A DNA stretch of 55,492 bases from a virus: the IMG/VR virus record IMGVR_UViG_3300010373_000056, positions 1-55,492 of that record, one strand, 5' to 3'. The notes under the pieces were generated by a model. The model ran no database searches. It saw only the letters and a list, made by a program, of their open reading frames with translations, and was not told where the DNA came from. This document shows positions 4,240 through 44,865 of the stretch, in pieces. Positions within the stretch are counted from its first letter, which is position 1; every line of letters begins with the position of its first letter. The translations under genes were made by a program, and so were the position numbers.

Positions 4240-4603
4240 CAAGATCACAACCCTCATTCACGCTAGAAGCGGCTACCGCGGATTCGTGGAAAGCGTTACG
4301 CGACGCTTTGCCGATGTGCCACTCGTCGCACTTACGGCAGCGCCAGCACGCGAGGACGATGTTGCCGCCACCTTTGCCGCCCCACGAGCGCGGCACCAGG
4401 TGGTCACGAGTGGCGTGGGAGATGTTCGGCTTGCGCGGCTCACAAACTCGGCAATGGACACGCCTGCCGCAGTGCTGGCAGGTCCAGCCGCGGGCGTCGC
4501 CGAGCTTGTGCATCTGGCCGTGCTTTGAGCCTTTGCTGAATCGCAGGTTGGCTTCAGCCGCGTCTTCGCGGTTATCGGTTTGCCTGTCAGGGTTGGGGCT
4601 CAT
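4232..4603 (-). CDS. HNH endonuclease
   Basis: A 123-residue protein. CQHC and CRVC zinc pairs at about 42-55 precede the HNH core: HATRDHLVPRSWGG, then GNIVLACWRCRKCDEWH. The Asp-His, the Asn and the final Cys pair match the HNH fold (DNA nicking/cleavage with a metal ion). It sits next to two DNA methyltransferases. The C-terminal HESAVAASSVN is encoded by REP-like repeat C. Whether it is a homing enzyme or an early DNA-processing enzyme cannot be decided. Confidence 0.85.
   Translation of the reverse strand: MSPNPDRQTDNREDAAEANLRFSKGSKHGQMHKLGDARGWTCQHCGRRVHCRVCEPRKPNISHATRDHLVPRSWGGKGGGNIVLACWRCRKCDEWHIGKASRNAFHESAVAASSVNEGCDLDV
4259..4281 (-). repeat. REP-like hairpin repeat, copy C
   Basis: Minus strand: CCGCGGTAGC followed by CGCT-TCT-AGCG. 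The AT-rich tail seen in A, B and E is missing. It forms the 3' end of the HNH gene. Confidence 0.7.
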
Positions 4604-5610
4604 ACCGACCCCCCAAAATCGAAAGGCGTGTCCCCGATGCGCTGGACAGCGATATCGAGATACGCGGGGTTGAGGTCTATGCCGATCGCTTTGCGGCCCA
4701 ACCGGCGGGCGACCATCGCCGTCGTGCCGGAGCCGTTGAACGGGTCCAGCACGGTTCCGCCTTCGGGGCAGCCAGCGAGGATGCAGCGCCTAGCTAATTC
4801 AGGTGGCATGGTGGCGAAGTGCGCGCCAGGGAACGGGGCGGTTGGGATCGACCAGACGTCTCCGGGATTCTTACCCAGCGGGTTCGCATCAATCTTCCCA
4901 CCGTCCTTAAGCATGTTCGATTTGAGCTGAGCATGGTGCGTAGCGCCGCCCTGCTGGAACTCGCTCTCATATCGCTTCAACGAGATGGCGCTGTATGGCT
5001 CTCGGATGGCATCTAGATCGAACCAATAGTTGCGGTTCTTACTGAGCAGAAAAACGTTTTCATGGGTAGAGCTGACGCGGTCCGTGACGCTCTCAGGCAT
5101 CGCGTTCGGCTTGTGCCAGATGATCTCCTTGCGCAGCGTCCACCCCCTATCCTGGAGGGCGAAAGCGACCTTCCATGGGATTCCGATGAGGTTCTTCGGA
5201 CGCCCCCATTCCTGCGCCACGTCAACGGGCCGAACAAATCCGCGCCTCGCTGGTTGTTTCCTGTCCGGTCCGACTGCCGCGCCCTTGCCGCTGAAGTAGG
5301 TGTCGCCCAGATTGAGCCACATGACGCCATCGTTCGTCATCGCATCACCTGCAAGGTCAAGGATGTCGACCAGCTTTTCGACGTACTCACCCGGTGACGC
5401 CTCTAAGCCAACCTGGCCGTCCACCCCGTAGTCGCGGAGACCGAAATAGGGCGGCGATGTGACAACGCAGTTCACCGAGCCTGGTGCGAGGGTGGCGAGC
5501 ACTTCCCGTGCGTCACCGAGCAGCAGCGTCACGTCGTGGTCCTCGAAGTACGGAACCGCGGTAGCCGCATCTTGCGTAGATAGATTTTCTGTTCCCTGGT
5601 TGGGGCTCAT
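4600..5610 (-). CDS. DNA methyltransferase (N4-cytosine or N6-adenine), TSPPY type
   Basis: A 336-residue enzyme. The catalytic TSPPYFGLRDYG is near residue 51 and the S-adenosylmethionine site DPFNGSGTTA follows near 293, the order of the beta class. The central region (residues ~110-270) is probably the target-recognition part. TSPPY is usual for N4-cytosine enzymes but also occurs in N6-adenine ones. No restriction partner is adjacent, so it is likely an orphan enzyme protecting phage DNA. Residues ~7-18 (ENLSTQDAATAV) come from an inverted REP-like repeat (copy D). ATG at 5610 overlaps the next methyltransferase's stop. Confidence 0.9.
   Translation of the reverse strand: MSPNQGTENLSTQDAATAVPYFEDHDVTLLLGDAREVLATLAPGSVNCVVTSPPYFGLRDYGVDGQVGLEASPGEYVEKLVDILDLAGDAMTNDGVMWLNLGDTYFSGKGAAVGPDRKQPARRGFVRPVDVAQEWGRPKNLIGIPWKVAFALQDRGWTLRKEIIWHKPNAMPESVTDRVSSTHENVFLLSKNRNYWFDLDAIREPYSAISLKRYESEFQQGGATHHAQLKSNMLKDGGKIDANPLGKNPGDVWSIPTAPFPGAHFATMPPELARRCILAGCPEGGTVLDPFNGSGTTAMVARRLGRKAIGIDLNPAYLDIAVQRIGDTPFDFGGSV
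5552..5592 (+). repeat. REP-like hairpin repeat, copy D (inverted)
   Basis: Plus strand: GCGGTAGC, stem-loop CGCA-TCT-TGCG, then TAGATAGATTTTCTG. It lies in the opposite orientation to the other copies and at the 5' end of a gene. The fourth stem pair is A-T here, T-A in A/B/C and C-G in E, so pairing is kept while sequence changes. Confidence 0.7.
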
Positions 5611-6350
5611 ACCGACCCCCCAAAATCGAGAACGTCCTGAGCAAGCCGCTTGGCCGCTATTTCGCAGTACCGCTCATCTACCTCGATGCCGATCGAGCGA
5701 AATCCGAGTTGCTTAGCCGTGACGAGCGTGGTTCCGCTGCCCATGAATGGATCAAGGATCAGAGCGGCAGGCGGCACGACCTGTAACGCCCACAGCATGA
5801 CCGGCTCAGGCTTCTGGGCTATGTGGTCGCGGTCCCCGTCGATCTTGCACGACACGACGTTCTGAGGGCTCCCGCCGCCATCGATGACCGGACCGTTAGT
5901 CGCATAGACCACGTACTCGGCTGAGGATGAGAAACGACCCTTCTGCATCCGGACACCGGGCTTCCACCAGGTGCCGAGGTTGCGCCAGACCCATCCGCCA
6001 GCCTGGACCGCGTCGGTGAGAACGGGCAGATTGCGCCAGTCGATGAACGAGACGAGCACCGCCCCAGGCTCTGACGCATTGCGTGCGGCGTTCAGCCAAA
6101 GCGTCGCCCAGGCCATGAACGAGCGCTGGTCACGGTTGTCCCCAGCGAACTCCGGCCGATAAGCGTACGTGTCGCTGTTGACGTACTTCGTCGTCGTCGC
6201 CTGTGCTCTGTCGCCCCGGAATGCGCCACCCGACGAATACGGAGGATCCGTTATCACAGCGCCGACGCCCGACAGGTCATGCAGGATGTCGAAGCAGTCG
6301 CCGTGGTAGAGGGTTACGAAGTCGTCGGTGTAGTACGGGTTGGGGCTCAT
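5607..6350 (-). CDS. DNA adenine methyltransferase-like protein, DPPY type
   Basis: A 247-residue protein with the catalytic TDPPYSSGG near residue 34 and the cofactor motif LDPFMGSGTTL near residue 198. This fits a small beta-class N6-adenine (or N4-cytosine) methyltransferase. The catalytic half resembles the adjacent enzyme only in motifs, so they probably have different targets. It ends in DFGGSV, as does the next gene, and the shared stop/start joint TTTTGGGGGGTCGGTATGAG supplies the downstream ribosome binding site. Confidence 0.9.
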   Translation of the reverse strand: MSPNPYYTDDFVTLYHGDCFDILHDLSGVGAVITDPPYSSGGAFRGDRAQATTTKYVNSDTYAYRPEFAGDNRDQRSFMAWATLWLNAARNASEPGAVLVSFIDWRNLPVLTDAVQAGGWVWRNLGTWWKPGVRMQKGRFSSSAEYVVYATNGPVIDGGGSPQNVVSCKIDGDRDHIAQKPEPVMLWALQVVPPAALILDPFMGSGTTLVTAKQLGFRSIGIEVDERYCEIAAKRLAQDVLDFGGSV

Positions 6351-16487: not shown

Positions 16488-16721
16488 CTATTTGGTGGTC
16501 GTCAGTTCGCCGGGTAGCAGCGAGGTCGGAGCAATGTCCAGGACTTCGGCTGCCCGGTAGATCTCGTCCACGGTGAACGGCACGTCGCCGTTGAGCCGCC
16601 GGGTGGCCGCCGAGAGGGACATGTCCAACGAGTCAGCGAACGACTGGCGCGATATGCGCAGACGGGCTAAGTTGGCACGGACCTCAGCGGCTACCCTCTG
16701 AGCGGTGGGGTTGGTCGCCAT
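16488..16721 (-). CDS. Cro-like helix-turn-helix protein
   Basis: A 77-residue protein with a central helix-turn-helix (SRQSFADSLDMSLSAATRRLNG) and flanking helices. Without gaps it aligns with the divergently encoded repressor from VAAEVR through the last helix (VDEIYRAAEVLDI against VDDLERLSGLLEL), so the two are paralogues. Context (divergent, first gene toward the lytic block, short) suggests the Cro role: shutting off repressor synthesis. The ATG is six bases after a -10 element, so its mRNA is probably leaderless. Confidence 0.8.
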   Translation of the reverse strand: MATNPTAQRVAAEVRANLARLRISRQSFADSLDMSLSAATRRLNGDVPFTVDEIYRAAEVLDIAPTSLLPGELTTTK

Positions 16722-16725
16722 AGGA

Positions 16726-16734
16726 CTAACTTAG
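16726..16734. promoter_or_regulatory. Palindrome CTAACTTAG over the Cro -10 element
   Basis: A 9-bp perfect palindrome around a central C overlaps the -10 of the Cro-like promoter. Half-site-like CTAA/TTAG strings also occur near 16403, 16667 and 16802. It is a candidate operator for the repressor or Cro; only sequence symmetry supports this. Confidence 0.4.
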
Positions 16735-16757
16735 GACATGAGCGGCACGCATGTCAA
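16728..16757 (-). promoter_or_regulatory. Leftward leaderless promoter of the Cro-like gene
   Basis: Minus strand TTGACA (16757-16752), 18-base spacer, TAAGTT (16733-16728), six bases, then ATG at 16721. A start site seven bases after the -10 would be the A of the ATG, so no leader or ribosome binding site exists. Confidence 0.75.
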
Positions 16758-16805
16758 CCCGTGCGCGCATAACTTTTTCGGCCAGCGGCAAACGTCCGCG
16801 CTAAT

Positions 16806-16836
16806 TTGACAAAACCAGCCGCGTAGTGGTTATTCT
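16806..16836 (+). promoter_or_regulatory. Rightward leaderless promoter of the repressor
   Basis: TTGACA (16806-16811), 19-base spacer, TATTCT (16831-16836), six bases, then ATG at 16843. Predicted transcription start coincides with the start codon. Confidence 0.7.
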
Positions 16837-16842
16837 CGTCGC

Positions 16843-17232
16843 ATGACGAAAGCCATCGTTTCCGAGATGCCCGATCGTGGGGACTCTCTGCGGGCGCAAG
16901 TGGCCGCCGAGGTCCGTTCCGAGCTCAGCCGCAAGAAGATCACGGTCAACAAGCTGCCCGGGCTGATCGGCGAGAGCCAGTCGTACTGGTCTCGACGCAT
17001 CGGGTCGGCCCAGGTTGCGCTCTCGGTCGACGACCTAGAGCGACTGTCGGGGTTGCTTGAGTTGCCGCCGTGGCGGTTCCTGACGACGCGGCCGCAGAAC
17101 GGCGCTCCGCCGCCTTCGTGGGGCTCGGGGTGGGCCCCGCGGGGCTCGAACCCGCAACCTACGGATTACAAGGTGGACGGATCGGTCGCGCTGGCCGATG
17201 TCATCCCGCTTACTCGTCGGCGAACAGGGTGA
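16843..17232 (+). CDS. Immunity repressor-like HTH protein with attP core in its 3' end
   Basis: A 129-residue protein. Helix-turn-helix at about residues 30-55 (KKITVNKLPGLIGESQSYWSRRIG), then a helix VDDLERLSGLL; it is a paralogue of the Cro-like protein. Residues ~97-110 (WAPRGSNPQPTDYK) are the reverse complement of a tRNA-Thr 3' half read as protein, the presumed attP core. Integration would exchange everything after about residue 110 for host-encoded residues or an early stop. This is the layout of mycobacteriophage BPs, where the viral repressor form is unstable and the shortened prophage form is active. Confidence 0.8.
   Translation: MTKAIVSEMPDRGDSLRAQVAAEVRSELSRKKITVNKLPGLIGESQSYWSRRIGSAQVALSVDDLERLSGLLELPPWRFLTTRPQNGAPPPSWGSGWAPRGSNPQPTDYKVDGSVALADVIPLTRRRTG
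17131..17172 (-). other. Putative attP core: 3' half of tRNA-Thr(UGU)
   Basis: On the minus strand, reading from 17172: anticodon loop CTTGTAA, stem TCCGT, variable AGGTT, T-stem/loop GCGGG-TTCGAGC-CCCGC, acceptor 3' strand GGGGCCC and discriminator A. The 5' partner of the anticodon stem is not present beyond 17172, so this is a half tRNA. Tyrosine integrases commonly cross over in the anticodon loop of such sites, and integration would rebuild an intact host tRNA. Confidence 0.8.
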
Positions 17233-17247
17233 CCAGTCCACTCCGTA

Positions 17248-17264
17248 AGTTGCCATCGGCAACT
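17248..17264 (+). other. Short hairpin between repressor and integrase
   Basis: Inverted repeat AGTTGCC-ATC-GGCAACT, 16 bases after the repressor stop. It could be a weak terminator or part of the attP arm region. No T-run follows. Confidence 0.4.
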
Positions 17265-17312
17265 AATGTCTTCCCCTTCCCTCGTTGTGTGCCCGCTGTT
17301 AACTTGTCCGGC

Positions 17313-18137
17313 ATGCCGGGGTCCCGCTTAACAGAGTGGGAACAATGGATGCGAGCCGCGAGCCTCGCCCCGCGCACCATTCAGGCCCGCATTGACCTGG
17401 TCCTGCTCTTCGCCGAGCGGACCGGACTCGACCCCACCGGGGCCAGTTGGCAAGACCTCACGATGTTCCTTGCCGCGCTGGCTGGGGCCGGGACCCGCCA
17501 GACCTACCAGGGCCACTTCCGAGCCTGGTATCAATGGCTCGTCCGCATGGAGTACCGACCAGACGACCCGACGCAGAAACTCCACAAACAGCGCGTGCCG
17601 CGACGCAGCCCCCGCCCGTTCACCATCGGCCAGGTCTCGAAGATCCTCAGCCAAAGGATGCACCGACGGACCCGGGCCATGGTGCTCCTCGGCGCATACG
17701 AGGGCTTCCGGGTCAGCGAGATCGCCAAGGTCGCCGGCCCGCACATCGAAGGCCCCAACATCTGGGTCGAGGGCAAGGGCGGCGTGGTCGACAAGGTCCC
17801 GCTCCATCCGCTGGTCGCCGAGGTCGCCGAGACATTCCCAGCCCGCGACTTCTGGTTCCCGTCGCACGTCCGGCCTGGCCCGATGACAGGTAACTCCGCG
17901 TCACGGATTATCTCCGATCTGATCGCCCGGGCTGGTGTCGACGGGACCGCGCATCAGCTCCGGCACTTCTTTCTCACCGAGGCTCTCCGAGCGTCAGGCG
18001 GCAACTTGAAGGTCGCCCAGGAACTGGGCCGACATGCGTCCATCGCGACGACGGCCGGTTACACCAAGGTCGACGACGAGGAGCGGCGTGCGGCGGTGTT
18101 CGCGTTGCCGCGACCGCTCCGGCTGATCTCCAGTTAG
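17313..18137 (+). CDS. int: Tyrosine-family site-specific integrase
   Basis: A 274-residue enzyme from ATG 17313; the frame is open further upstream but those residues overlap the repressor and tRNA-like core. A SAM-like core-binding domain occupies ~10-95. The catalytic domain has Arg in YEGFRVSEI, Lys in VEGKGGVVDK, HQLRH, GRHASIATT and the nucleophile Tyr in GYTKVD. All R-K-H-R-H-Y residues are present. There is no obvious N-terminal arm-binding domain, so it is short for a phage integrase. A TAACTT lies seven bases before the ATG, a possible leaderless start with a weak -35. Confidence 0.9.
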   Translation: MPGSRLTEWEQWMRAASLAPRTIQARIDLVLLFAERTGLDPTGASWQDLTMFLAALAGAGTRQTYQGHFRAWYQWLVRMEYRPDDPTQKLHKQRVPRRSPRPFTIGQVSKILSQRMHRRTRAMVLLGAYEGFRVSEIAKVAGPHIEGPNIWVEGKGGVVDKVPLHPLVAEVAETFPARDFWFPSHVRPGPMTGNSASRIISDLIARAGVDGTAHQLRHFFLTEALRASGGNLKVAQELGRHASIATTAGYTKVDDEERRAAVFALPRPLRLISS

Positions 18138-18211: not shown

Positions 18212-18844
18212 ATGACCACGATCGACGACTACGCCAGGGAGAATATCGCCCAAGAGGAGGCCGAGCGCGACCCGTTCACCGTCGAGCGCTACCAGCAGTT
18301 CGTCCGCCACCTGCCACCGGACCCGAGGGTCGTCCTCGACGTCGGTTGCTCCACCGGGCGCGGGGGCCAGGAACTCGTCACCGCCCGCCCCGACATCGAA
18401 CTGTGGGGAATCGACGTCCTCCAATCCCGCCTCGACGCCCTCCCCGACGCCTACGCGAAGCGGGTGCTGGGCCTCTCCACCGACATCCCGCTCGAAGACG
18501 GCACGGTGGATGTCATCGTCGCCGGGGAGTTCCTCGAGCACCTCCGGCCCCGCGACGTCGACCCGACGCTGTGCGAGTTCCAGCGCGTCCTCCGCGTCGG
18601 CGGCCGGCTGATCCTGACCACGCCCAACCCGAGCTCGCTGCGCCTCCGCTTGCAGCACCTGACCGTCTACACGCCCGGGCACCTGACCCAGCACCATGTG
18701 TCGACGTTGCGCCGCCGGTTGAAGATGCACGGATTCCGCAACGTGCGGACCTGGGGCACCGGCAAGATGAGCCGCAAGATCGGCACCAACGTCCCGCTCA
18801 TGCCGCTCTACGGCAGCTACCTGATGCGGGCGGACAAGAAGTGA
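18212..18844 (+). CDS. SAM-dependent methyltransferase, class I
   Basis: A 210-residue protein starting MTTIDDYARENIAQEEAE after TTGAGGAGATCAACA. Cofactor motifs: VVLDVGCSTGRGGQ (motif I), IELWGIDVL (acidic end of beta 2) and VIVAGEFLEHL; then RVLRVGGRLILTTPNP. This is the pattern of small-molecule or glycan/lipid methyltransferases rather than DNA ones. The gene follows the integrase on the same strand and overlaps a lipoprotein gene, so it may be expressed in lysogens and modify the host envelope. Confidence 0.8.
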   Translation: MTTIDDYARENIAQEEAERDPFTVERYQQFVRHLPPDPRVVLDVGCSTGRGGQELVTARPDIELWGIDVLQSRLDALPDAYAKRVLGLSTDIPLEDGTVDVIVAGEFLEHLRPRDVDPTLCEFQRVLRVGGRLILTTPNPSSLRLRLQHLTVYTPGHLTQHHVSTLRRRLKMHGFRNVRTWGTGKMSRKIGTNVPLMPLYGSYLMRADKK

Positions 18845-19783: not shown

Positions 19784-19950
19784 TCAGCTCCTGGTCGTCA
19801 GTAGCCACTGGTCGTCGCCCGTGGTCAAGTGGTAGGCGTCGGTCCCGCTGGTCAGGGGCCATTGGTCCGTCTCGGTCGCGAGCGGCCAGCGGTCGCCTTG
19901 GGTCGTGAGCAGCCATTGGTCCGGCTGGGTCGCGAGGACCACGTCGATGT
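19784..19950 (-). repeat. Five short Trp-rich repeats at the C terminus of the fibre-like protein
   Basis: Codes for PDQWLLTTQ, GDRWPLATE, TDQWPLTSG, TDAYHLTTG and DDQWLLTTR, each about 9-10 residues. It is a second, unrelated repeat array next to the 18-residue one. Confidence 0.75.
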
Positions 19951-22468
19951 TGCGGCGCGGATGCGGGGCGGATGCGGTGAGGCTGCCAAGGAAGCCCAGG
20001 ACCGCGCTGACACCCTTGCCGATGCGCTTGGGGATGGACCCTGTGAACGAGAGACCGGCGGCTAGGCCGTGCGTGATGCGGCGGGGCATTGAGCCGGTGA
20101 AGGTCACTCCAGCGGAGAGGGCCTTGCCTATTTGCTTCACCTGCGAGCCGGTGAAGGACAGGCCCCCCGACAGTCCCTTGCCTATCGAGCGCGTCTGCGA
20201 CCCGGTGAAGCTGAGGCTGGCACTGAGGGACTGCACGAAATGATGCACCGACGCGGTGGCCAGGCTGCCGGTGAAGGACAGTCCGGCGCTGAGCGCGTGT
20301 TTGGTGTTGCGCGTGAGCGAACCCGTGAACGACAACCCAGCTGTCAGTCCATGCTTGACGTTGCGGGGCATTGAGCCGACGAACGAGAGCCCGGCGCTCA
20401 GTTGCTTCCCGATGGTCCGGGGAAGCGCCCCCGCGAAGCTGAGGCCCGCCGCGAGGCTCTTGCCGACCGAGCGGGCCTGAGAGCCTGTGAACGAGAGGCT
20501 TGCGCTGAACGACTGGATGTAGTGGTGGACCGACGCGGTGGCAAGCGACCCGGTGAACGACAGACCGGCGGAGATCGTGCGTGCCGTGGCCCGAGTCAGG
20601 GAGCCCGTGAAGCTCAGTCCCGCGCTGATGCCGTGCGCGATATTGCGGACAATCGCTCCAGTGAAGGACAGGCCAGCCGTGAGGGCTTTGCCGATCGACT
20701 TGGGGAGCGCCCCGGTGAACAAGAGCCCGCCCGCGAGCCCCTTGCCGACCGACTTAACCTGCGAGCCGGTGAAGGACAGGCCCCCCGACAGGTTCTGTAC
20801 ATAGCGGTGGACCACGGCGGTGGTCAGGGACCCGGTGAAGCTGAGCCCTGCCGCGATGGCGTGAGCGGTTGAGCGGGTGAGGCTGCCGGTGAAGGACAGT
20901 CCGGCCGCTATTCCCTTGGTGATCGCCCGGGACTGGCTGCCAGTGAAGGAGAGTCCGGCGCTGAGGGCTTTGCCGATGGCCCGAGTCTGGCTGCCGGTGA
21001 ACGACAAGCCGCCGGATAGTCCCTTGCCAATTGCCCGGGATTGCGATCCAGTGAAACTCAGACCTGCTGTGAGGATCTTGGCGGTTCGGCGCGTCACGGA
21101 CCCCGCGAAGGACAGCCCGGCGGCCAGGGTCTTCACGGTGGCCCGGGTGAGCGCGCCTGTGAACGAAAGGCCAGCGGTGACGGTTTTCGCGGTTGCCTTG
21201 GATTGCGAGCCCGTGAAGCTGAGACCCGCCGAGAGATTCTGGGTGTAAGCCGTCCCGCCGGATGGCTTGATGAACATGAGCAGCGCGGCCCATGAGCCAG
21301 AGCCCGCGTTGGCGTACCAGTTGGCGTTCAGCGAGCCGGTGGTCCGGGCGACAGCGGTGGCGAGGTAGGACTGGTGGAACGCCGAGCCCGAGCCGACCGT
21401 GGTGGTCGCCCCGAAGGGGTAGTCCGCGATCGGCTGAAGGTTGTTGGAGTTGTTCGAGGACAGGAACGACAGGACGAGGTCGCCGACGGTCGCCACGGTC
21501 CCGGATGGACCCGAGGGGGTCGTGCCGCCACTGGCCGTCGCGGTCGTGATGTCGAGGAACGTCGAGTTGCCGCCGGATATCTCCAGCAGAACGCCGTTGA
21601 TGATGTCGCCCGTCGTCGTGACGGTCCAGGTGTTCGACGCGGCGTCCCCGGTCGTGGTGTCCCCCGTGGTGACCGGGCGGGTCCAGGACGTGACCTGCCC
21701 GCCACCCGCGTCGCTGGCCGTCGCGTCGGATGTGAACGCTACCGTCGTGGCCGGGGCGGACGGGGTGAACGACTGCCGGGAGCCGACCAGCAGGACGAAG
21801 GTGTTGCCGACAGTCGGAGTCGAGGGCAGCGTGAAGGTGATCGAGTTGCCCGAGACCGTCGAGCCCTGGATGTTCTGCTGGACGATGACCGGCGAGGTCG
21901 GCAAGTATTCGGCGAACGTGTCGACAAAGGTGATCGTCGTCAGACCGGTCGACGTCGGGCCGTTGACCGTGTTGGTGACCGTGAACGGGCCGCCCATTGT
22001 GCCGACGTTGCGGACCTTGAAAGTGACCTTGATCCAGTCGCCGGACGTGATCGACGTGGAGGTCGGGGCCACGGCGGCGAGGGCCTTGGCCGCGTCGGAC
22101 GTGCTGTACTCGGTGATCGTCGAGGGCACCGTGCGGTCGGACAGGATCGTGCCGAGGTTCGTGGTGCCCGTCGAGTCGTAGTGCTCGATCAGGATCCCTG
22201 CGCCCGCGTTGGCCGACGTCGAGGACTCCTTGCCTCGGATCGAGGCGGAGATGTTGCCGGACAGGGTGAACGAGGTGCCGACCTGATACCACCAAGTGAC
22301 GGCGGTGCCGCCGCCCGTGATGGTCAAGGGGATGTTGGTCCCGCTCGCCACGGTGTTCGTGACGATCGGGGAACCGGAGGTGTTGGGACCGGCTAGCGAG
22401 GCTAGGGCATATTGACCAGCGCCCCCGAGCGGGCAGACGGACGCACGCGCATAAAGCGTGGTGCTCAT
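19784..22468 (-). CDS. Large fibre-like protein with 22-23 AGLSFTGS repeats
   Basis: An 894-residue protein. Residues ~1-210 and 210-410 are Thr/Ser/Gly-rich beta domains (TITFVDTFAEY, PSTPTVGNTFVLLVGS; GDLVLSFLSSNNSNN) typical of tail-tip adhesins. Residues ~411-834 are an array of 18-residue units based on L(S/T/A)AGLSFTGSxxRxxxKx. The C-terminal ~55 residues hold five short DQWxLTT-type repeats. The array should form a regular beta structure, perhaps a long shaft or multivalent display. No enzymatic motif is seen. It lies beyond the lysis genes, so it may be an accessory fibre. Confidence 0.75.
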   Translation of the reverse strand: MSTTLYARASVCPLGGAGQYALASLAGPNTSGSPIVTNTVASGTNIPLTITGGGTAVTWWYQVGTSFTLSGNISASIRGKESSTSANAGAGILIEHYDSTGTTNLGTILSDRTVPSTITEYSTSDAAKALAAVAPTSTSITSGDWIKVTFKVRNVGTMGGPFTVTNTVNGPTSTGLTTITFVDTFAEYLPTSPVIVQQNIQGSTVSGNSITFTLPSTPTVGNTFVLLVGSRQSFTPSAPATTVAFTSDATASDAGGGQVTSWTRPVTTGDTTTGDAASNTWTVTTTGDIINGVLLEISGGNSTFLDITTATASGGTTPSGPSGTVATVGDLVLSFLSSNNSNNLQPIADYPFGATTTVGSGSAFHQSYLATAVARTTGSLNANWYANAGSGSWAALLMFIKPSGGTAYTQNLSAGLSFTGSQSKATAKTVTAGLSFTGALTRATVKTLAAGLSFAGSVTRRTAKILTAGLSFTGSQSRAIGKGLSGGLSFTGSQTRAIGKALSAGLSFTGSQSRAITKGIAAGLSFTGSLTRSTAHAIAAGLSFTGSLTTAVVHRYVQNLSGGLSFTGSQVKSVGKGLAGGLLFTGALPKSIGKALTAGLSFTGAIVRNIAHGISAGLSFTGSLTRATARTISAGLSFTGSLATASVHHYIQSFSASLSFTGSQARSVGKSLAAGLSFAGALPRTIGKQLSAGLSFVGSMPRNVKHGLTAGLSFTGSLTRNTKHALSAGLSFTGSLATASVHHFVQSLSASLSFTGSQTRSIGKGLSGGLSFTGSQVKQIGKALSAGVTFTGSMPRRITHGLAAGLSFTGSIPKRIGKGVSAVLGFLGSLTASAPHPRRNIDVVLATQPDQWLLTTQGDRWPLATETDQWPLTSGTDAYHLTTGDDQWLLTTRS
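19964..21235 (-). repeat. 54-bp tandem coding repeats in five-unit superrepeats
   Basis: Twenty-two full units of 18 codons plus one partial. Units 8, 13 and 18 are longer by four codons (RYVQN, HYIQS, HFVQS). They fall every fifth unit, giving a superrepeat of about 94 codons (282 bp) seen in units 4-8, 9-13, 14-18 and 19-23. Confidence 0.85.
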
Positions 22469-44188: not shown

Positions 44189-44542
44189 ATGAGTTGGGAA
44201 GTCAGCCTGGTGAGCGAGGTCAGCGAGTGGCTGATCAACCTCAGCGAAGAAGACCCCAAGCTGGCCGACCTGGTCGCCGCCGCGATCGACATGCTCGAAG
44301 AGAACGGCCCGACGCTTGGACGCCCCCTGGTCGACACGATCAAGGGATCCAAGATTCACAACCTGAAAGAACTGCGGCCCAGCACAGTGCGCCTGCTGTT
44401 CGCGTTCGACCCCAAGCAAGAGGCGATCATCCTGGTCGCTGGCGACAAAGCAGGACAGTGGAAACAGTGGTACGCAGACAACATCCCAGTAGCCGAAGAA
44501 CGCTACGCCCAGTGGATCAACGGCTACTCGGTGGAGGAGTGA
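44189..44542 (+). CDS. RelE/HigB-type toxin (Gp49/DUF891-like)
   Basis: A 117-residue protein starting MSWEVSLVSEVSEWL. The earlier in-frame TTG is upstream of the predicted transcription start. LVAAAIDMLEENGPTLGRPLVDTIKGSKIHNLKELRP, TVRLLFAFDPKQEAIILVAGDKAG match phage-type RelE/HigB mRNA interferases, with the basic/aromatic residues in KELRP, RLLFAF and DKAGQWKQWY. The toxin precedes the antitoxin, the HigBA order. Confidence 0.85.
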   Translation: MSWEVSLVSEVSEWLINLSEEDPKLADLVAAAIDMLEENGPTLGRPLVDTIKGSKIHNLKELRPSTVRLLFAFDPKQEAIILVAGDKAGQWKQWYADNIPVAEERYAQWINGYSVEE

Positions 44543-44544
44543 CC

Positions 44545-44865
44545 ATGGACGACAAGCTACGCACCCGCAACTGGCGGAGCGTCCGGGCCGAGATGAAGCC
44601 CGACGAGGACGCCGTCGCGCAGCACAAGCGGAATCAGATGGACGAGGTCCGCGCCTACCGGCTGGCCGAGGTCCGCAAAAGCCAGGGGCGCACCCAGCAG
44701 GACGTCGCTGACAGTCTGCTGGTCGCTCAAGCGCGAGTGTCGAAGCTGGAGCGCGGCGATCTAGCCCGCTCCGAGGTGGGCACCATTCGGTCTTACGTCG
44801 AGGCTCTGGGCGGGCATCTGCGGATCGTCGCTGACTTCGGCGACGAGACGTTGACCCTGAGCTAA
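44545..44865 (+). CDS. XRE-family antitoxin
   Basis: A 106-residue protein, ATG two bases after the toxin stop, with GGAGG at the end of the toxin gene. Helix-turn-helix at ~50-75 (GRTQQDVADSLLVAQARVSKLERGD), then a helix VGTIRSYVEALGG and beta end. Neutralises the toxin and represses the shared promoter in known systems. Its TAA overlaps the TAG of the convergent methyltransferase. Confidence 0.85.
   Translation: MDDKLRTRNWRSVRAEMKPDEDAVAQHKRNQMDEVRAYRLAEVRKSQGRTQQDVADSLLVAQARVSKLERGDLARSEVGTIRSYVEALGGHLRIVADFGDETLTLS

Follow-up and report, generated by a model that had tools for sequence, protein, structure and literature searches.

The locus analysed here raises the question of whether a phage repressor gene that contains the attachment site changes its product upon integration, and which host sequence brings about the change. 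The window, i.e. the whole stretch of DNA under analysis, is a 55,492-base virus record with 66% G+C, in which a cassette at 16.5-18.1 kb comprises a Cro-like helix-turn-helix (HTH) gene on the minus strand and the genes for a repressor and a tyrosine integrase on the plus strand (Table 1). The original prediction proposed an integration-dependent immunity switch with the gene order of phages BPs, Brujita, and Charlie, in which an antisense tRNA-Thr(UGU) 3' half serves as attP. No near relative of the phage was found at the DNA level in the phage collection, nor did scans of viral contigs with its integrase, repressor, and terminase reveal a close one. The large terminase of the phage (49653-51200, minus strand) shares 53% identity with the protein of Microcystis phage MinS1 and 49-51% with those of Arthrobacter phages.

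The repressor frame was confirmed at its predicted length of 129 residues. Residues 19-125 align with positions 15-120 of the 128-position profile of PHROG 2328 (transcriptional repressor, E 4.6e-6), and residues 11-125 match the immunity repressor of Gordonia phage PhrostedPhlake (tblastn, E 7e-5), while the identity to characterised members is low (22-31%). The divergent Cro-like gene is present as predicted, and its product is paralogous to the repressor (BLASTP, 32% over 62 aa, E 2e-8). In the region between these two genes, weak promoter-like hexamers were noted by eye on both strands near each start codon; a consensus scan of the same region found no promoter. A palindrome, AGTTGCC-ATC-GGCAACT, is located at 17250-17265 just before int, and GCCATCGGCAA at this position is similar to GCCAGCGGCAA at 16781-16791 in the control region; the two would make a possible operator pair. 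A second XRE-type HTH protein, possibly an antitoxin, is encoded at 44194-44865 on the plus strand (PHROG 2339, E 1e-11).

The integrase matches Pfam PF00589 (E 8.9e-16) and PHROG 1 (E 2.2e-35) and retains the catalytic residues R-K-HxxR-H-Y; the catalytic domain is the only Pfam domain detected in it, and its best annotated hit is from mycobacteriophage Rem711 (45% identical). The start of this gene had been placed 80 bases downstream of the repressor. The GTG at 17229, which would give a 4-base overlap with the repressor stop, is probably the true start, because the same overlap is found in Rem711 and PhrostedPhlake. The repressor and the integrase are probably cotranscribed. No excisionase was found among the ten other window proteins scanned. 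Accessory genes are often found directly downstream of integrase genes, and the gene located directly 3' of this one (18212-18841, plus strand) encodes a SAM-dependent methyltransferase (Pfam Methyltransf_11, E 3.8e-13). Elsewhere in the window, the minus strand encodes a 169-aa protein with HPFRDGNGR, a typical Fic/Doc motif (1331-1840), two adjoining open reading frames with the DNA methyltransferase-like motifs TSPPYF and DPPYSS (4600-6350), and an 894-aa protein with some 25 degenerate 'SAGLSFTGS'-type repeats, probably a repeat-rich tail protein or adhesin (19784-22468).

Table 1. Coordinates of the immunity and integration cassette in the window.
Feature	Position	Strand	Basis
Cro-like HTH protein, 77 aa	16488..16721	-	PHROG 4583 E 6.9e-18; Pfam BetR E 1.1e-8
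Control region between the divergent cro-like and repressor genes (tentative)	16722..16842	.	sequence
Immunity repressor, viral form, 129 aa, C-terminus -TRRRTG	16843..17232	+	PHROG 2328; tblastn
Predicted attP core, tRNA-Lys 3' half, antisense to the repressor	17131..17168	-	37/38 identity; shuffles
Codon 109 at the junction: Tyr (TAC) in the phage, stop (TAA) after joining to tRNA-Lys	17167..17169	+	attL simulation
Repressor tail of 21 residues predicted to be lost on integration: YKVDGSVALADVIPLTRRRTG	17167..17229	+	translation
Tyrosine integrase, 302 aa from GTG 17229 or 274 aa from ATG 17313, C-terminus -LISS	17229..18137	+	Pfam, PHROG

The 38-bp core, which reads TAATCCGTAGGTTGCGGGTTCGAGCCCCGCGGGGCCCA on the minus strand, spans codons 97-108 of the repressor and extends two bases into codon 109, so that 17169 is the first phage-specific base. 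A 38-base tRNA-Lys query matched the window once, with 1 mismatch, and none of 100 shuffled sequences was matched at up to 3 mismatches. Although the searched genomes yielded no prophage, attL, or attL/attR pair of this phage, it is scarcely credible that the stretch is a chance resemblance or a decayed fragment with no attachment function, given the result of the shuffles, its location just upstream of an integrase with intact catalytic residues, and the occurrence of a core at the same place in characterised relatives.

The original prediction was correct in recognising an antisense tRNA 3' half that starts at 17131; the shared core, however, stops at 17168 rather than at 17172, and it belongs to tRNA-Lys rather than to tRNA-Thr(UGU). 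When 148 genomes of one actinobacterial order were scanned, 37 of the 38 core bases were identical in 5 genomes, in every case in tRNA-Lys(TTT); no genome of this set was found to carry all 38. The proposed search for a matching host tRNA-Thr(TGT) was carried out, and the genes recovered from related genomes differ from the core at 10 or more of the 38 bases, as against 1 for tRNA-Lys(TTT). Moreover, their acceptor stems start with GCC or GCT, which would not pair with the GGGGCCC of the core. Though the patterns used to collect the tRNA-Lys loci were built from the phage core, the first such pattern favoured TGT over TTT; in 395 genomes of an actinobacterial class, a TGT-containing pattern found almost only tRNA-Lys(TTT) among the matches listed. 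Because of the 37/38 match, the divergence of tRNA-Thr(TGT), and its unpaired acceptor stems, a tRNA-Lys gene almost certainly serves as attB.

The competing assignment, with a tRNA-Thr(UGU) gene as attB, a core extending to 17172, and a repressor tail swapped for a host-encoded one upon integration, arose because the bases after the core read CTTG, giving the anticodon TGT. The phage sequence CTTGTAA does match a TGT anticodon loop, and the repressor frame stays open past the junction when joined in silico to five tRNA-Thr(TGT) genes, as in published prophages whose repressors gain host-encoded residues (PMC8092301). However, the threonine anticodon depends on a single phage base, C17169, and the mismatches over the core together with the acceptor-stem pairing led us to reject this assignment as highly improbable.

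Neither the core nor the phage-specific junction was found in viral contigs. The record with the highest DNA similarity to the core, MT838127.1, is named 'Bacteriophage sp.' and was discarded as a phage attP, since it contains a complete tRNA-Lys and its contig is bacterial-looking in gene content; it is probably host contamination. Isolated tRNA-Lys halves with the same change of the anticodon base (CTTGTAATCC) occur in two bacterial genomes (G651:C29, 14021-14062, and G541:C17, 258-299). These sites were considered as attR and rejected, the same cassette being present at neither locus. The G651 locus is an ordinary prophage end at tRNA-Lys, where the core does not interrupt the repressor. 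Both halves may be att remnants left by other integrated elements.

The assignment of attB to tRNA-Lys exposes how the prophage form of the repressor would be made, namely through a stop codon created at the junction. In the phage, the frame runs through GAT-TAC, with Tyr109, and continues to 129 aa, whereas tRNA-Lys reads GAT-TAA in the same frame. Position 35 of the anticodon is U in tRNA-Lys, and codon 109 in an antisense tRNA-Lys is therefore TAA. The translation across attL, suggested as a check on the switch, was run in silico by joining the repressor to real tRNA-Lys genes, and a protein of 108 aa was obtained in 36 of 36 cases, including one with the anticodon CTT. Read antisense, tRNA-Lys gives a stop at the junction in just one of its three frames, the one used here. 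Because every join to tRNA-Lys gives 108 aa, integration should delete 21 residues of the repressor by an immediate stop, instead of replacing about the last 20 as initially expected. Selection should also keep the crossover to the left of 17169, since a crossover to the right would put the phage base into the anticodon of the rebuilt tRNA. Had the phage retained the tRNA base at 17169, the viral repressor itself would end at residue 108; as the phage codon leaves the tRNA sequence exactly at this base, the phage appears to maintain the longer form.

These features can be compared with those of published integration-dependent systems. Of the traits of the type of Broussard et al. 2013, as given in later papers, the window has an attP core within the repressor frame, an adjacent tyrosine integrase on the same strand, and a divergent Cro-like gene; its core is a tRNA-Lys half (37/38 in five genomes), and the shorter prophage repressor produced by a stop in attL was obtained in silico. 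An integrase without arm-type sites and the lack of a directionality factor are further traits of the type, while ssrA-like tags are typical of such systems and not universal. Among annotated phages, the core is matched best at the DNA level by immunity repressors of cluster N, including those of Charlie and Butters. Phages of this cluster use tRNA-Lys MSMEG_5758 as their integration site (PMC7542560), and integration-dependent immunity is listed for them (PMC9262239). Charlie and Butters share with the window phage the gene order, an antisense tRNA-Lys 3' half in the repressor, the frame in which it is read (GSNxxPxDY), and GAT TAC at the junction, and their integrases are related to that of the window (about 39-40%). 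In contrast, their repressors are only about 24% identical to the window repressor, the body of the tRNA-Lys differs (82-83% over the core), as does the host, and their viral repressors end in -SAA or -EVA instead of -RTG (...GSNQRPADYQTVV...DSAA in Charlie; ...GSNLRPADYQTVI...DEVA in Butters).

Further parallels are provided by Rem711, PhrostedPhlake, and Gudmit, which have the same Cro-like/repressor/integrase order and an antisense tRNA half in the repressor. Unlike in the window phage, these are halves of other tRNAs, the one in Rem711 being read in another frame, and the repressors end in -DAA, -AAA, and -VAA, respectively. In phage BPs, a Cys codon is converted to TGA by the first host base (PMC9262239), and the prophage repressor has 103 residues against 136 in the viral form, the short form being stable and active and the long form degraded (PMC4557955). 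According to this published comparison, BPs resembles the window phage in the location of attP within the repressor and in the third-base stop supplied by the host (Cys to TGA and Tyr to TAA, respectively); it differs in its attB, a tRNA-Arg gene, and in the loss of 33 residues (gp33-136 to gp33-103) instead of 21. In several M. abscessus prophages, the stop also comes from the first host base, with 20-35 residues lost (PMC8092301).

Similar cassettes also exist in the actinobacterial order that contains the matching tRNA-Lys genes. Integrase searches of this order revealed a 41-kb prophage (G575:C24, about 42.6-83.9 kb) bounded by a half tRNA-Arg (attR) and an intact tRNA-Arg(CCG) (attL). At its attR, a repressor remnant ending in -TSPVAA lies just upstream of int; at its attL, an HTH repressor reads into the tRNA and ends in ...FCSGGRRSIP. 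The second example, a 6208-base phage contig (G855:C539) that was binned with a bacterial genome, carries an integration-dependent cassette with an intact viral repressor ending in ...DSNQKPFDYWMAA (-DYWMAA). In both, the attP core is inside the repressor and beside a related integrase, and the second has GAT TAC at the edge of the tRNA half, as in the window phage. They differ from it in having other repressor sequences and the tags -VAA and -WMAA; the prophage differs further in its tRNA-Arg site and in gaining about 8 host-encoded residues before the stop. The anatomy of the system thus exists in this order. At three other integrase loci (G486, G780, and G874), no clear repressor remnant was found. 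The architecture that had been likened to BPs, Brujita, and Charlie is supported by the PHROG 2328 match, the frame and codon shared with Charlie and Butters, the attL simulation, and the two natural relatives.

As originally noted, neither the repressor (-RRTG) nor the integrase (-RLISS) ends in an ssrA-like tag, so that the usual inactivating signal is missing, and the short tail of 21 residues contains no recognised motif. Both observations are compatible with an alternative in which integration trims the tail without regulatory effect, the two repressor forms repress equally, and the overlap reflects compact packing. We regard this explanation as unlikely, though it survives better than the others. 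The departure of the phage codon from the tRNA at precisely the base that would shorten the repressor speaks against it, as does the presence of this TAC codon in Charlie and Butters, phages of a published system. Besides, four prophage clusters of M. abscessus lack ssrA-like tags and are presumed to use other signals (PMC8092301), so that such a tag does not define the class; by the description in that paper, MabC, MabH, MabN, and MabO combine an attP in the repressor with the absence of such a tag from both the repressor and the integrase, as in the window phage, and lose 20-35 residues.

The preferred reading remains that of a temperate actinobacterial phage whose cassette would constitute an immunity and integration module of the integration-dependent type. 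In the phage state, TAC at codon 109 would be read through to give the 129-residue repressor. Upon integration at a host tRNA-Lys, host DNA would supply the third base of this codon, converting it to TAA, and an intact tRNA-Lys would be rebuilt with its anticodon still host-derived. The prophage would then produce a repressor of 108 residues that lacks the C-terminal 21; as a likely consequence, the long form would be weak or unstable, and the short form would be stable and confer immunity. We are highly confident of the anatomy, i.e. an attP within the repressor, a tRNA-Lys target, and a 108-residue prophage form, and consider the full switch, including the change of repressor activity, to be probable. 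We infer the exact attB, the position of the crossover, and the difference in activity between the two forms. The tail may be another kind of degron, a direct inhibitor of the repressor, or neutral. A more specific version is put forward tentatively and is rather doubtful at present: the tail would silence the repressor without an ssrA-like tag, either as a different degron or by preventing oligomerisation or DNA binding, and the releasing stop would come from the tRNA-Lys anticodon, which the genetic code keeps conserved. If this were true, the switch would rest on an anticodon that the host cannot easily change.

The design is similar to that of published systems, to which the analysis adds the corrected tRNA identity and the stop codon at the junction. 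They also point to a simple rule: in the frame used by the window phage, Charlie, and Butters, TAA is obtained whenever a tRNA-Lys anticodon is read backwards, and TAG would likewise be expected from a tRNA-Arg with the anticodon NCU. We did not find this rule stated in the cited literature. The analysis places a probable integration-dependent switch in a phage for which the phage collection contains no close relative; its tagless viral repressor is a candidate for learning how such repressors stay inactive without an ssrA-like tag.
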